Shown here piece by piece: positions 7,143 through 15,603 of a DNA stretch of 64,000 nucleotides; the first letter of the stretch is position 1, and each line of letters begins with the position of its first letter. The position numbers and the translations under genes were made by a program. Origin of the DNA: a virus; IMG/VR virus record IMGVR_UViG_3300037468_000183, positions 40,081 through 104,080 of that record, one strand, 5' to 3'. The notes under the pieces were generated by a model, which saw only the letters and a program-made list of their open reading frames with translations, did no database searches and was not told where the DNA came from.

Positions 7143-8018
7143 TTATACCACCTTCTGCCAGCCGAAGCGCTTGGCAATGCCGAACACTGTCGCCACGGTC
7201 ACGGCTCCGGTGGGGTTGCCCGTCTCGTGGAAGCTGCGCCACTTGCGCTCGACTTCGCCAGGCGCGCCATCGGCCCACGTTTCGGCCAGCGGTAAGCCGG
7301 CGTCGCCAAAGTTTGCTTGGAGTCCCATGAGCACCTGCACCCATTCGTCGTAGTCGATGCCCCAGGGCGGGATGCGCTTGAGTGCGTCATAGACTTCGGT
7401 CTGCGTGGCGGGAGCGGCGAAATCCTTGTGCTCGACAACGCGTTTCTCACGGCGGCCTGTGTCGCTCCATTGCTGGATCAGATGCTTGACCGTTTCCAGC
7501 GTCAGGACGTTTTCGAGATAGGCAATCTCGCAACCGGTCGCGCCGTAGAAGAAGCGCACCGGGTCTTTGCATTGCCGGTCGGCCGTGCCGAACAGCCACA
7601 AGAGCGCCTGCACGGCTTGACTGTAGTTCTTGGCCTGCATGATCGGCGTGTCGAGGAGGAAGACAGCGCGTGCTCGTGGCGCTTCGGGTGTGTGGCTGGT
7701 CGTGGTGTAGAGCAGACTGGCGTATTTGGCGATGAACTTATCGGCGCTGAGCGTCGCCAATGTGCTGCGACTGTCTTCGGTATCGAAGTCGAGTCCGATG
7801 TGTTGGCCGCAAACGTAATTCTCAGATGTGCGCCAGCCCTTTGCGTGCCAAGTCGTGAAAGCGTGCCCGGTGTAGATCGAGTCAGCTAAATCCATGCGGC
7901 TGACTTCTCGATTGACGAAACCGGCGTTGAACGTGCTCCAGAACGTATCACCAGCCGGAATCTTGTGCGTCAGCTGGTGCCTGGATACGGCCACGCGGAA
8001 TGAAGCGTCATTGCTCAT
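7143..8018 (-). CDS. Archaeo-eukaryotic-type primase with PriCT-2 domain
   Basis: 291 residues. The catalytic strand IGLDFDTED (about 74-82) gives the paired acidic residues of AEP primases, and RFFYGATG (about 160) the downstream basic strand. The C-terminus from about residue 207 (ALKRIPPWGIDYDEWVQVLM to FGIAKRFGW) fits the Primase C-terminal 2 domain. It should make primers for the adjacent helicase. The start overlaps the downstream end of the previous gene by 11 bases. Confidence 0.85.
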   Translation of the reverse strand: MSNDASFRVAVSRHQLTHKIPAGDTFWSTFNAGFVNREVSRMDLADSIYTGHAFTTWHAKGWRTSENYVCGQHIGLDFDTEDSRSTLATLSADKFIAKYASLLYTTTSHTPEAPRARAVFLLDTPIMQAKNYSQAVQALLWLFGTADRQCKDPVRFFYGATGCEIAYLENVLTLETVKHLIQQWSDTGRREKRVVEHKDFAAPATQTEVYDALKRIPPWGIDYDEWVQVLMGLQANFGDAGLPLAETWADGAPGEVERKWRSFHETGNPTGAVTVATVFGIAKRFGWQKVV

Positions 8019-8654: not shown

Positions 8655-8682
8655 ATTATACATCATCGGCTAGAAAAGTCAA
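8655..8682 (-). promoter_or_regulatory. Sigma-70-type promoter before the HTH gene
   Basis: On the minus strand TTGACT (8682-8677), a 16-base spacer and TATAAT (8660-8655). Transcription should begin near 8648, which is at or within a base or two of the ATG at 8647, so the message may be leaderless. Confidence 0.65.
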
Positions 8683-9534: not shown

Positions 9535-10728
9535 TCACTTGCCGACGATCTCTTTGCCGGCAACCTTCGCCTCGGCGCGCTTCTCCAGCGCCACGCAGAC
9601 GGCTTCCAGGTTCTCGGTCGTTACCTTCCGGAAGTTCTCGGCGTAGACCGCACGCAGAAGGTGCGGCATGTCGGCCTTGCCGTCCTTGCGATAGTACGGG
9701 AAGACCTGGACAAAGACCTCGCACCACTGCGCGAAGGCGTGGGCGGCCTTGCCTTCCATGTCCGCCATCTGGCCTCCGCCATGCGGCTTCGGGGCGGCGC
9801 TGCGCTCCACGGTGGCGCTCGTCATGGCGTGAAACTCCGCCTCCGCATCAGACAACGGCGGCTCGGTCGCGGGCGGTGGCTTGGACGCCGCGACGGGTGG
9901 CGGCTCCTCCTCGGCCAGGTCTTCGTCGTCGTCATCGTAGTCATCGTCATCGTCCGCGTCGTCAACGTGGCGGGCCGTCAGTTGCAACGGTTGGCCCGCG
10001 GCCAATGCCATCTGTTCCTCGGCCTCGACCTGCATCCGTGCCAACACCCACTCGGCGGCGGGCACGATCTTGACCAGGTCCTTGATGGTGCGATTGCGCC
10101 GGCCCGCAGCCTTATCCTCGTCCTTCCAGGCTGGCGTCGAGATGGATTGCTTGACGCGTAGCACGTTGAACAGGATGCCGTTGAGATGGCCGGCTTTGGT
10201 TTCGGCGTCCAGCAGACAGGCAGTGATGGAGACCAGATCATTAATGCTGTGTGTCTCCATCGTCACGAAGCCGACGAAGCCCGCCCGGATCAACTGCGGC
10301 ACGATCATGCTCAGGCGCCCGACTTGCTTACAGCCGGGGTTGTCCTTCGCGCGCGTCTTGGTTCCGGTGTAGTACGGACACGGCCGTTCGCCATCGGCAT
10401 AGTCGCCGTTGGCCGTGCGCCAGCGGTTCATTGTCTGACCGTCGCAACGATGCACCATACCGCCGTGGTCATATTCCTCAAACCACGTATTCCAATTCTG
10501 TTCCAGCGTCGCGAATGGCAGATAGGCCTCGATCAGCGCGGGCTTACCGCCGTATGCGGCATCGAAAGCGCGCTGCACATCCTGGCGTTCGCTCGTGAAA
10601 CGCCAGTGATCCAGGTCGGGGCCGGGGCGCTTCGGGTCGGTCTTGGGGCCGCCCTTGCGGAGTTTGCCCAAGTCCGGGAACTTGGGCGTGATGTCCTGGC
10701 GTCTTGTCATGCCGACTATGGGTGACAT
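9535..10728 (-). CDS. phiC31 gp3-like (recombination directionality factor-like) protein
   Basis: 397 residues starting SPIVGMTRRQDI after GGAGGAACTTTT. The N-terminal two thirds (LDHWRFTSERQDVQRAFD; PCPYYTGTKTRAKDNPGC; LIRAGFVGFVTMETHSINDL) match the family containing the phage phiC31 directionality factor gp3, often annotated hydrolase or metal-binding protein. A very acidic Asp run at about 250-265 and a Pro-rich linker separate a C-terminal helical domain. If it is a true RDF, a serine integrase should exist outside this window. The name rests on remembered family patterns. Confidence 0.65.
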   Translation of the reverse strand: MSPIVGMTRRQDITPKFPDLGKLRKGGPKTDPKRPGPDLDHWRFTSERQDVQRAFDAAYGGKPALIEAYLPFATLEQNWNTWFEEYDHGGMVHRCDGQTMNRWRTANGDYADGERPCPYYTGTKTRAKDNPGCKQVGRLSMIVPQLIRAGFVGFVTMETHSINDLVSITACLLDAETKAGHLNGILFNVLRVKQSISTPAWKDEDKAAGRRNRTIKDLVKIVPAAEWVLARMQVEAEEQMALAAGQPLQLTARHVDDADDDDDYDDDDEDLAEEEPPPVAASKPPPATEPPLSDAEAEFHAMTSATVERSAAPKPHGGGQMADMEGKAAHAFAQWCEVFVQVFPYYRKDGKADMPHLLRAVYAENFRKVTTENLEAVCVALEKRAEAKVAGKEIVGK

Positions 10729-11396
10729 AAAAGTTCCTCCTCTGTATGCTCCTGTAACTTCTTGGCCTGCCACCTCGCGTTTGCCGCCGCGCTTTGCTTG
10801 GCCTTTCCATCCGGTGTAGCCAAGCGGACTTTGTGCGAGGCAGACATCTTGGCACGCGTCTCGGTGCTGTGTACGCGCCCCTTGATTGCAGCGCTGTGTT
10901 GGGCACGTGCCTCTGGATTGCTCATCTGAATTATTGCCGCGGCGCTTATCTTCTCGCGTGTCTCCGGGCTGACTACCTTGCCCCTCTGCGCCGCGCCTAT
11001 CTTAGCGCGTGTTTCGGCAGTCTGCGTCCGCCCTCTCAGCATGGCGCGTATTTCGTCGCTATAGTGAACTCCCCTGCACGTCCTGGGGTGTGGAGCTATG
11101 TTATAACCATGCTCTCTGTCGTATGATCGTAACGTGTCCATCCAGTGTTGTTCGCGCTCGTCCAGCCGCGCCAAATCCTCGATGTGTTCCAGGACAATGA
11201 TCTCGAAAGCCTCCCATCCGTACTTCGCAACGGCGCGATACAAAGGGTGCGGCTTCTTCCCGACCAAGCACCGATGTTGGTATATGCGCTCTCTGAGGCA
11301 CTGCGCCTGACCCACGTACACCTTGCCGCTTTCCACATGGAAGATGCCGTAGATGCCAGTAAACTTCCAGTCGCCCCAATACGCTTTCGGCATCAT
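10716..11396 (-). CDS. GIY-YIG homing endonuclease with NUMOD3 repeats
   Basis: 226 residues. GIY is at about 14-16 and VYVG at 26-29, followed by the Arg-containing helix CLRERIYQH. From about residue 105 there are four or five NUMOD3-type DNA-binding repeats (SDEIRAMLRGRTQTAETRAK, then SPETREKISAA and STETRAKMSASHK). This is a free-standing mobile endonuclease that cuts intronless or empty alleles. Its last codons overlap the start of the gp3-like gene, so insertion has been tuned to keep expression of that gene. Confidence 0.85.
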   Translation of the reverse strand: MMPKAYWGDWKFTGIYGIFHVESGKVYVGQAQCLRERIYQHRCLVGKKPHPLYRAVAKYGWEAFEIIVLEHIEDLARLDEREQHWMDTLRSYDREHGYNIAPHPRTCRGVHYSDEIRAMLRGRTQTAETRAKIGAAQRGKVVSPETREKISAAAIIQMSNPEARAQHSAAIKGRVHSTETRAKMSASHKVRLATPDGKAKQSAAANARWQAKKLQEHTEEELLCHP

Positions 11397-11995: not shown

Positions 11996-12106
11996 TTACC
12001 TGAGTCCCCAGGCCGCGCCGGGTGACGCGGACACGACATAATACATGAATGCGCCGAATGCCACGCCGACGAGGAGCAGCAGAGCGGCGTCGATAAGACG
12101 GTTCAT
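11996..12106 (-). CDS. Small membrane protein (36 aa)
   Basis: This short frame encodes an N-terminal hydrophobic helix (AALLLLVGVAFGAFMYYVV) and a short polar tail. The ATG at 12106 overlaps the stop of the gene upstream (12103), matching the coupling style of the operon. It is the third tiny membrane protein in this strand. Function unknown. Confidence 0.5.
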   Translation of the reverse strand: MNRLIDAALLLLVGVAFGAFMYYVVSASPGAAWGLR

Positions 12107-12327
12107 GCTTCCAGCCTAATCTGAATCGCGGACTTGATTACCGCGGGCAAGTTGCTCCAGGCGATCAACGGCAGTGAGCGTTGCACCTTTGCGGGTCGCC
12201 ACTGTATCCAAATGGCGGTGTTCATACGGGACAAATCAGGATTCGCCGTCACCTGATCTTCGCTGAAGAAATTCGCGTTTCCAGCACGTGAGCCGAGATG
12301 CAATGCTATCCACTGTGCGATATTCAT
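12103..12327 (-). CDS. Hypothetical protein under a structured leader
   Basis: 74 residues from the ATG at 12327. Motif-free, basic C-terminus, moderately hydrophobic (LPLIAWSNLPAVIKSAIQIR). Its AAGGAGG ribosome site comes directly after the closing helix of RNA element 1 (12344-12448). Translation could therefore be controlled by that structure. Confidence 0.55.
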   Translation of the reverse strand: MNIAQWIALHLGSRAGNANFFSEDQVTANPDLSRMNTAIWIQWRPAKVQRSLPLIAWSNLPAVIKSAIQIRLEA

Positions 12328-12343
12328 ACCCCATCCTCCTTTT

Positions 12344-12448
12344 GCAGGTCTAGCGCGCCTTGCCCATACGCGACATGCGCAGGGTTGCAACCGCCCGGAT
12401 GACCGGGGAGTAGCGCACCACGAGTTGACACGTGACCCCTAGACCTGC
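12344..12448 (-). ncRNA. Putative cis-regulatory RNA element 1
   Basis: On the minus strand the ends pair perfectly over 10 bp (GCAGGTCTAG with CTAGACCTGC). Inside, a 6-bp helix (12413-12418 with 12375-12380) encloses CTACTCC, a 5-bp hairpin CCCGG/CCGGG and GGCGGTTGCAACCCTG. Element 2 at 12902-13004 has the same conserved words but different paired bases in both inner helices, which is covariation. The element ends 4 bases before the Shine-Dalgarno of the next gene. Not a riboswitch class I recognise; the RNA nature is inferred. Confidence 0.55.
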
Positions 12449-12494
12449 GCCCAAGCAATCATGCTCCGGCCGCCGATAAATGCGACTCGGTTGG

Positions 12495-12830
12495 TTATGA
12501 TGGCGTATGCCGCCGCTTGTATATGGCGTATGCTGCACGATTCAAGTGGCGTTTGCGCCACCCATCGTAGATGCCCCTGATCCAGAGGCCAAGACTCATA
12601 CTTACATGAGATTGCTCCTGCCACAACTTGACTTTCAACGTCTCGCGCATCTGGTAATAACGGTCGTTTTGCGCCTTACCACCCAAAATCTCAAGCCATT
12701 TTGCTTCGCCTTCGGGTGTACCAAATACGACAGTCTCACGCGCCAGCAGTACACGCTCCCACAACTCATCGAATTCTGCTTGTTCTTCGGGTGTAGGCTC
12801 TTGGCGCGTATCCTCTTTTTCGTCAAACAT
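12495..12830 (-). CDS. Hypothetical protein under a structured leader
   Basis: 111 residues with an acidic N-terminal helix (DEKEDTRQEPTPEEQAEFDE) and a basic, aromatic C-terminus (WRKRHLNRAAYAIYKRR). GAAGGAG lies 8-9 bases before the ATG. Upstream come an 8-bp hairpin and RNA element 2. No family recognised. Confidence 0.55.
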   Translation of the reverse strand: MFDEKEDTRQEPTPEEQAEFDELWERVLLARETVVFGTPEGEAKWLEILGGKAQNDRYYQMRETLKVKLWQEQSHVSMSLGLWIRGIYDGWRKRHLNRAAYAIYKRRHTPS

Positions 12831-12846
12831 AGGTTTGCTCCTTCGA

Positions 12847-12875
12847 TGCCAGCCTTTTGAGATGTCCGGCTGGCA
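12847..12875 (-). promoter_or_regulatory. 8-bp hairpin in the leader
   Basis: TGCCAGCC and GGCTGGCA pair perfectly around a 13-base loop, ending just before the GAAGGAG site of the 12495-12830 gene. There is no uridine tract after it, so it is more likely a translation-control or mRNA-stability hairpin than a terminator. Confidence 0.4.
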
Positions 12876-12901
12876 GGGCGTGATATGCTTGCCGACCCAC
12901 A

Positions 12902-13004
12902 GCGTCTAGTCAGGTCTGGCCCACATTGCCCACGGCGGCATGGTGTCCGTCAGGGTTGCAACCGCCCCGCTCACGCGAGGGAGTAGTGGACTTCTAGATG
13001 ACGC
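12902..13004 (-). ncRNA. Putative cis-regulatory RNA element 2
   Basis: Second copy of the element at 12344-12448. It shares CAGGTCT, TTGCCCA (15 bases later in both copies), a 17-base block CAGGGTTGCAACCGCCC and GGAGTAG, read on the plus strand. Its inner helix is GTCC/GGAC. Its hairpin is CCTCGC-GTGA-GCGGGG on the minus strand, where the loop is a GNRA tetraloop and the one mismatch becomes G-U. The outer stem is GCGTC/GACGC, then a bulge and TAG/CTA. These details favour minus-strand RNA, upstream of 12495-12830. Confidence 0.55.
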
Positions 13005-13213
13005 ATCGTCAGCTTGTCCCTGTCACCGGCGGCCGGTTGCCGGTTGGTTCTGTTTGCCTGACCACGTGGATCAGCGAGTGCGCTTACCAGCCGCCTGTAT
13101 CATCATGCCATCGCACCTCCTGTCTGTCATCTCCCGCCCTGGCGTCAAGTGTGACACGCCGTGCAGTCACGCTCCGCTAGGGGATTGTCACGAGCAGGGC
13201 AGGATATTGGCCG
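13005..13213. other. Gap between early genes; only a minigene seen
   Basis: No convincing full gene. On the minus strand AGGAGGT precedes an 11-codon frame (13071-13106, peptide MMIQAAGKRTR) that could be a leader peptide feeding into RNA element 2. Otherwise nothing is recognised here. Confidence 0.25.
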
Positions 13214-15242: not shown

Positions 15243-15271
15243 ACTATAGCACGTTTATACACGTTTGTCAA
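15243..15271 (-). promoter_or_regulatory. Leftward early promoter
   Basis: On the minus strand a perfect TTGACA (15271-15266), 17-base spacer and TATAGT (15248-15243). Two direct copies of ACGTTT, 10 bases apart (15251 and 15261), lie inside the spacer and -35 region and are candidate repressor sites. It should drive the 15-kb leftward operon. Confidence 0.75.
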
Positions 15272-15353
15272 TAGGTAAAAGGACGAGTTTTGGAAATGTG
15301 TTAAAATGTTAAGGTTCAAACTCATAAATACGCTGCGATAAGTTTGACAATCT

Positions 15354-15361
15354 GTTATAAT
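15354..15361 (+). promoter_or_regulatory. Rightward promoter, extended -10
   Basis: TG-T-TATAAT ending at 15361 is an extended -10 box, 33 bases before the HTH gene start. There is no good -35 at 17 bases; the TTGACA at 15344 is only 6 bases away and cannot serve. An inverted repeat TCAAACT/AGTTTGA (about 15317-15347) overlaps it and may be an operator. Confidence 0.55.
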
Positions 15362-15393
15362 GGGCTTAGACTATAAACAAAGGAGCAACAACA

Positions 15394-15603
15394 ATGAGCG
15401 AAAACGAATATCTTACCGTGGATCAGGCGGCGGAGCGTGCCAACCGCCACGCGCAGACGATCAGGAATTGGGTACGCTCAGGCAAACTACCTGCCTTTCG
15501 CCTGGGGCAATCGTATTTAATCCGGCCCGAAGACCTCGACGCAATGTATCAGCCGGTGCAGGTCAAGCCGGTGACGACCGTCGAGCCGGAGGTGGCGCCA
15601 TGA
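15394..15603 (+). CDS. HTH_17 / excisionase-family DNA-binding protein
   Basis: 69 residues. LTVDQAAERANRHAQTIRNW followed by GQSYLIRPEDLDAMY is the standard helix-turn-helix_17 pattern of helix-turn-helix excisionase-like proteins. AAAGGAGCAACAACA precedes the ATG. Being the first gene right of the divergent promoters, it is a good candidate for the regulator of the switch region. Confidence 0.8.
   Translation: MSENEYLTVDQAAERANRHAQTIRNWVRSGKLPAFRLGQSYLIRPEDLDAMYQPVQVKPVTTVEPEVAP

Follow-up and report, generated by a model that had tools for sequence, protein, structure and literature searches.

Two diverged copies of a candidate structured RNA element in an early phage operon

Two homologous elements, here termed E1 and E2, lie upstream of two small genes (A and B) in the leftward early operon of a phage, and share a three-way-junction fold with compensating helix changes on the minus strand. 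They belong to no known family. We propose, with a probability of roughly 0.4, that E1 and E2 represent a cis-acting structured mRNA leader that controls genes A and B, most likely through a bound protein of phage or host origin. The DNA analyzed is a stretch of 64 kb (hereafter the window) taken from a virus record 104,080 bases long; both the window and the whole record were searched.

Homology between the two elements

E1 and E2 were found on the minus strand, and their cores were read directly from the sequence (Table 1). The plus-strand words CAGGTCT, TTGCCCA, CAGGGTTGCAACCGCCC, and GGAGTAG occur in the same order and orientation in the two elements, and the distance from the start of CAGGTCT to that of TTGCCCA is 15 bases in both. 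On the minus strand, CUACUCC is followed by a hairpin, then by GGGCGGUUGCAACCCUG, and, after a variable stretch, by UGGGCAA and AGACCUG. The words at equal spacing and the shared block of 17 bases, both reported in an earlier reading of this DNA (hereafter the sequence-only reading), are therefore present as described. The 17-mer GGGCGGUUGCAACCCUG is identical between E1 and E2 and has exactly these two exact occurrences in the window; with up to two mismatches allowed, the whole record yielded the E1 and E2 sites only. The intergenic stretches bearing E1 and E2 were aligned by BLAST with 73% identity over 93 nt (E-values of 4e-8 in the pairwise comparison and 2.5e-5 against the whole window). 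Considering this alignment and the 17-mer found only twice, E1 and E2 are homologous, being two diverged copies of one element rather than a coincidence of short words.

Two other origins of the similarity were rejected. By inspection, the reading frames running through both conserved blocks are not conserved, which argues against a coding origin. The sequence-only reading had left room for a known mobile repeat, but a REP, a MITE, or an IS end would show many copies or transposase-linked ends; the 104-kb record holds two copies only, and none was found in the phage and plasmid collections. Besides the elements themselves, AACCAACCG was noticed on the minus strand upstream of both E1 and E2 (12488-12504 and 13041-13057) and is complementary to CGGUUG of the conserved block. 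The similarity between the two upstream words (CATAACCAACCG vs. CAGAACCAACCG) was not significant (BLAST E-value of 0.4).

Table 1. Coordinates in the window of E1, E2, and the associated features.
Feature	Position	Strand	Description
Candidate promoter	15243..15271	-	sigma70-like, TTGACA-17-TATAGT; 11/12, extended -10; consensus match only
E2 whole	12902..13004	-	outer pairing GCGUC/GACGC possible
E2 core	12919..12991	-	covariance model, 96.9 bits
E2 P2	12991-12986/12924-12919	-	GUCCAC/GUGGGC
E2 junction	12985-12981	-	UACUC
E2 P3	12980-12975/12970-12965	-	CCUCGC GUGA GCGGGG
E2 junction	12964-12951	-	CGGUUGCAACCCUG
E2 P4	12942-12939/12934-12931	-	CAUG/CGUG
E2 junction	12930-12925	-	GGCAAU
Hairpin	12846..12872 (approximate)	-	GCCAGCC/GGCUGGC; between E2 and the gene A Shine-Dalgarno; absent from the E1 leader
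Gene A Shine-Dalgarno	~12843	-	AAGGAGC
Gene A	12495..12830	-	111 aa, orphan; GC 51% (GC3 0.54); downstream of E2
E1 whole	12344..12448	-	outer helix P1 GCAGGUCUAG/CUAGACCUGC; small hairpin CACG...CGUG between P1 and P2
E1 core	12353..12418	-	covariance model, 88.2 bits
E1 P2	12418-12413/12358-12353	-	GUGCGC/GCGCGC
E1 junction	12412-12408	-	UACUC
E1 P3	12407-12403/12398-12394	-	CCCGG UCAU CCGGG
E1 junction	12393-12380	-	CGGUUGCAACCCUG
E1 P4	12377-12374/12368-12365	-	CAUG/UAUG
E1 junction	12364-12359	-	GGCAAG
Gene B Shine-Dalgarno	12341-12335	-	AAGGAGG
Gene B	12103..12327	-	74 aa, orphan; ATG at 12327; directly downstream of E1

A three-way junction shared by the two copies

The structure was modeled from an exhaustive list of the stems possible in both copies, combined with a pair count. 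In the shared fold, P2 closes a three-way junction from which P3 and P4 extend as arms (Table 1). P2 comprises 6 bp in each copy, and two of the pairs are changed on both sides. P3, which has one pair more in E2 than in E1, shows one two-sided and one one-sided change, and P4 shows two one-sided changes that preserve pairing. UACUC, CGGUUGCAACCCUG, and GGCAA form the strands of the junction, and the conserved single-stranded words within them are UACUC, GGUUGCAAC, and GCAA. Extra pairing is possible between UUGC and GCAA and between CCUG and UGGG; as all of these are invariant, the comparison neither supports nor opposes it.

The sequence-only reading had described the surrounding helices as kept in shape. 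This holds for P2 and P3 but not for the outer helix of E1 (CAGGUCUAG/CUAGACCUG), which is specific to E1 and not kept in E2. The hairpin it had drawn as CCCGG/CCGGG in one copy and CCUCGC/GCGGGG in the other is P3, and the single GNRA tetraloop it mentioned is GUGA in P3 of E2 (the corresponding loop of E1, UCAU, is not of this type). An inner helix does exist as it had suggested, but the 6-bp P2 fits both copies better than the proposed GUGCGC/GCGCAU and GUCC/GGAC.

The consensus fold of the two cores on the minus strand has an energy of -25.5 kcal/mol, compared with -11.1 +/- 2.9 kcal/mol for column shuffles (z of -4.9). When the conserved columns were fixed and only the varying columns were shuffled, the z score was -5.3 and none of 3000 shuffles was as good. 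The corresponding z scores for the plus strand were -2.7 and -3.3. The minus-strand fold is the stronger because several of its G-U pairs correspond to A-C when the plus strand is folded. Thus, both the conversion of plus-strand mismatches into minus-strand G-U pairs and the preference for a minus-strand RNA, as put forward in the sequence-only reading, agree with the consensus z scores (approximately -5 vs. -3).

For E1 alone, the minimum free energy fold contains P2 and P3 of the shared structure and a variant of P4. E2 alone is no more stable than its shuffles (z of approximately 0.1 to 0.2), albeit its minimum-energy fold still includes P2 and the inner portion of P3, and the support for the fold therefore comes from the comparison between E1 and E2 and from E1. 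All cells (100%) were paired in register, compared with 17-65% when the partners were slid, so that this control was clean. A per-pair shuffle control, which is weak by design with two sequences only, gave 66/500. Likewise, with two sequences the covariation is carried by just three two-sided pairs. A descriptor combining sequence and structure, scanned against 2.3 Mb of DNA, retrieved E1 and E2 with no mismatch and everything else with at least three mismatches. Altogether, E1 and E2 share a minus-strand fold with compensating changes.

Search for relatives

None of the 4227 models of Rfam 15, including those of riboswitches and ribozymes, matched the window at the gathering score, and no match was found over 12200-13100 even at an E-value of 10, in line with the earlier remark that no known riboswitch class fits. 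ARAGORN predicted no tRNA or tmRNA gene in the window. We then used a covariance model built from E1 and E2, which scores 88 and 97 bits for E1 and E2, respectively. No hit retaining the conserved words was obtained in 48 viral records related by TerL, in 15 records related by the replicative helicase (i.e., the replication module), or in the Methanosarcina virus MetMV. Among 400 Chloroflexota genomes, the best score was 28.5 bits, with alignments lacking the conserved words, and nothing was retrieved from 156 genomes belonging to the same order as one TerL-bearing genome (556 Chloroflexota genome draws overall).

Pattern scans gave the same picture. CTACTCC...CGGTTGCAACCC retrieved three copies of one unrelated locus from IMG/VR. 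The viral matches to TACTC...GGTTGCAACC...GGCAA (19) and the bacterial and archaeal matches to TACTC...CGGTTGCAACC...GGCAA (43; one genome per species) included none with the helices by inspection. A relaxed pattern matched 46 viral sequences in IMG/VR, none of which was recognized by the covariance model at the pattern site. In the latter scan, three IMG/VR contigs were found to share an unrelated conserved stretch with a hairpin, TGCAACCC(C/A)TCCCCCTYCAAAGTCAGCCGCTATAGCGGCAAGGA. Neither the gene for a protein like a recombination directionality factor (RDF) nor, in IMG/VR, that for an FG-GAP-like protein retrieved relatives when used as bait.

The search with a covariance model, which the sequence-only reading had recommended, thus returned no relatives above chance in the collections searched; note that these collections may omit records very near this genome, and close siblings may exist unseen. 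That reading had regarded a lack of further homologues as evidence against its proposal. No homologue was found in these collections, yet E1 and E2 do covary.

Genomic context

Genes on the minus strand extend from ~15.2 kb down to ~1 kb of the window. E2 and E1 occupy gaps of 383 and 170 nt, respectively, which are the two largest in a packed stretch of the early operon; from 15.2 to 10.7 kb, the remaining genes mostly overlap or are separated by less than 80 nt, with one gap of 117 nt (note that gene starts are approximate). E2 precedes gene A and E1 precedes gene B, as expected from the earlier description of the elements as lying upstream of early genes. E1 ends 2 nt, not 4 as previously stated, before the Shine-Dalgarno (SD) sequence of gene B. 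In E2, the corresponding distance to the SD of gene A is 58 nt, with another hairpin in between (Table 1). Folding of the leaders predicted no sequestration of the SD by E1 or E2 (the prediction covers pairing within the leaders; pairing over a longer range may occur). No intrinsic terminator was found on the minus strand directly after E1 or E2 or elsewhere in the interval from 12.0 to 15.5 kb; further down, there are just two, both weak. Judging from its match to the consensus, the promoter at the head of the operon (Table 1) may drive leftward early transcription across E2 and E1.

Genes A and B are mutually unrelated. Neither has relatives in Pfam, PHROGs, NCBIfam, or phage records, and no relative of gene A was found in IMG/VR. 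The GC content of gene A, including that at third codon positions, is below that of its neighbors; with E2 on one side and E1 on the other, the gene looks as a recently gained cassette might.

Several other features of this region were observed. At 15243-15372, two near-consensus sigma70 promoters lie back to back, with the leftward early operon on one side and the rightward genes on the other. Next to them, a small excisionase-like protein (HTH_17) is encoded at 15394-15603. A second strong promoter match on the minus strand (8655-8682; TTGACT-16-TATAAT, 11/12) heads a stretch of 716 nt with no assigned gene, upstream of 7143-8018. The early operon also encodes a GIY-YIG homing endonuclease with NUMOD3 motifs (10716-11396), adjoined by a Gp3-like RDF (9535-10773). 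Finally, head and tail genes occur twice in the 104-kb record, as two equally oriented sets (1-40 kb of the record and 22715-57958 of the window). Each set ends in an FG-GAP-like protein of 800 aa, and the two proteins share 90% identity. The doubled sets represent either tandem prophages or a joined contig.

A proposed bound mRNA leader and its alternatives

Unpaired words that stay conserved while the helices holding them vary in a compensated way typically mark an RNA recognized as RNA. In E1 and E2, the conserved junction words and the variable but compensating helices give the look of a recognition site, and the occurrence of one copy in front of each of two genes of one transcript suggests one factor acting on two messages. 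We propose that E1 and E2 are two copies of one cis-acting RNA in the leftward early transcript, and that each copy would fold as a three-way junction exposing UACUC, GGUUGCAAC, and GCAA. A single trans-acting RNA-binding protein, encoded by the phage or the host, may bind both copies on the mRNA, and the binding would tune the expression of the small downstream genes A and B through translation or stability. We infer the transcription of the region, the binding of the RNA, the identity of the binder, and the direction of control. In favor of the bound leader, we counted the homology, the consensus fold of the minus strand, the double changes (two in P2 and one in P3), the one-sided changes in P3 and P4 that preserve pairs, the slide control, the specificity of the descriptor, the placing in the two gaps, the 2 nt between E1 and the SD of gene B, and a near-consensus promoter upstream in the right direction. 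Against it, we counted the reliance on two sequences, the weak per-pair control, the unremarkable stability of E2 alone, the unequal distances to the SD, the unrelated orphan genes, the lack of predicted SD sequestration, and the lack of a homologue offering a conserved gene context. The translational operators on mRNA that are bound by phage proteins, as in T4, are similar in being structured mRNA sites upstream of phage genes, but E1 and E2 are shared by two different orphan genes and their binder is putative.

The sequence-only reading leaned toward a riboswitch, in which a small molecule would be the ligand of the junction words and ribosome access would depend on the outer helix. The near-invariant words in a three-way junction and the position of E1 abutting the ribosome-binding site suit this idea. 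However, riboswitch classes normally recur across bacterial genomes as phylogenetically conserved aptamers upstream of functionally linked genes, and no homologue of E1 and E2 was found in the bacterial genomes searched; genes A and B are orphans with no metabolic hint. An expression platform was not predicted either, neither as a downstream terminator nor as SD sequestration, and E2 lies 58 nt from the SD. The lean is unsupported, and we consider a riboswitch the least probable of the alternatives. Phage HK022 carries putL and putR, which, like E1 and E2, are two related structured RNAs of ~70 nt in early transcripts of a single phage, each put RNA being made of two stem-loops and located near the promoter of one early operon (PMC9378689). 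By analogy, E1 and E2, or a phage factor bound to them, could make RNA polymerase resist pausing or termination, and such an activity is insensitive to the distance to a gene, which suits the unequal spacing of E1 and E2. In contrast to put, with one copy downstream of each early promoter, E2 and E1 belong to a single minus-strand operon, at ~2.2 and ~2.8 kb from the candidate promoter; they form a closed three-way junction, and the stretch from 12.0 to 15.5 kb offers no terminator to be overcome. The put RNAs act in antitermination via the zinc-binding domain of the RNA polymerase beta' subunit, and an effect of E1 and E2 on the polymerase is hypothetical. We regard a put-like role as quite unlikely. 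An intergenic cut in the polycistronic early mRNA, made at an RNA-processing site or by a self-cleaving ribozyme, would agree with the intercistronic position, the repetition, and the conserved junction core. The RNase III sites of phage T7 are the case for comparison in mRNA processing, but the helices of E1 and E2 are too short for a typical RNase III site. No ribozyme family of Rfam matched at an E-value of 10, and we know of no ribozyme core that matches the conserved core. This possibility appears unlikely.

The elements may alternatively work as DNA, as an operator or a site of recombination or replication, where a dimeric protein binds the palindrome GGTTGCAACC or a folded single strand is recognized. 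In both copies, GGTTGCAACC forms a perfect palindrome of 10 bp, the flanking of the low-GC gene A by E2 and E1 fits a cassette, and folded single-stranded DNA also tolerates G-T pairs. On the other hand, a double-stranded operator needs no compensating helix changes favoring one strand, and the palindrome has no other copy with up to one mismatch in the window, including the vicinity of the divergent early promoters. By inspection, the core words of an integron attC (GTTRRRY/RYYYAAC) are absent from the ends of the elements. We find a DNA-level site rather improbable. E1 and E2 could also be a non-functional remnant, namely two copies that diverged from a selfish or formerly useful sequence, with chance accounting for part of the covariation. 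The count of only two copies, the lack of homologues in the collections searched, and the unremarkable stability of E2 alone agree with this, but the helices compensate and the junction words are intact, which points to selection after the sequence was duplicated. We consider a remnant improbable. Lastly, there is a small chance that E1 and E2 belong to a new class of functional RNA (a ribozyme, an RNA acting on RNA polymerase, or a ligand-binding RNA) with UACUC, GGUUGCAAC, and GCAA as its junction words, used twice by one phage for controlling two early genes.

Implications

A short structured RNA upstream of the regulated gene in a phage transcript is also known as the c4 antisense RNA (Rfam RF01695), but E1 and E2 do not match its model. 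Structured elements in early phage operons usually control timing or host takeover. A regulatory function of E1 and E2 is put forward here as a hypothesis built on two sequences of one genome. As orphan structured RNAs of a phage, they may resemble in kind the manA and wcaG motifs of cyanophages; numerous examples of the latter are known, in the context of metabolic genes (PMC2864571), in contrast to the two copies found here in one genome with no Rfam match. If real, E1 and E2 would add a structured-RNA motif outside every curated family, located in an early phage operon, and the two diverged copies in a single genome provide a built-in comparison, so that mutation tests can be designed at once.
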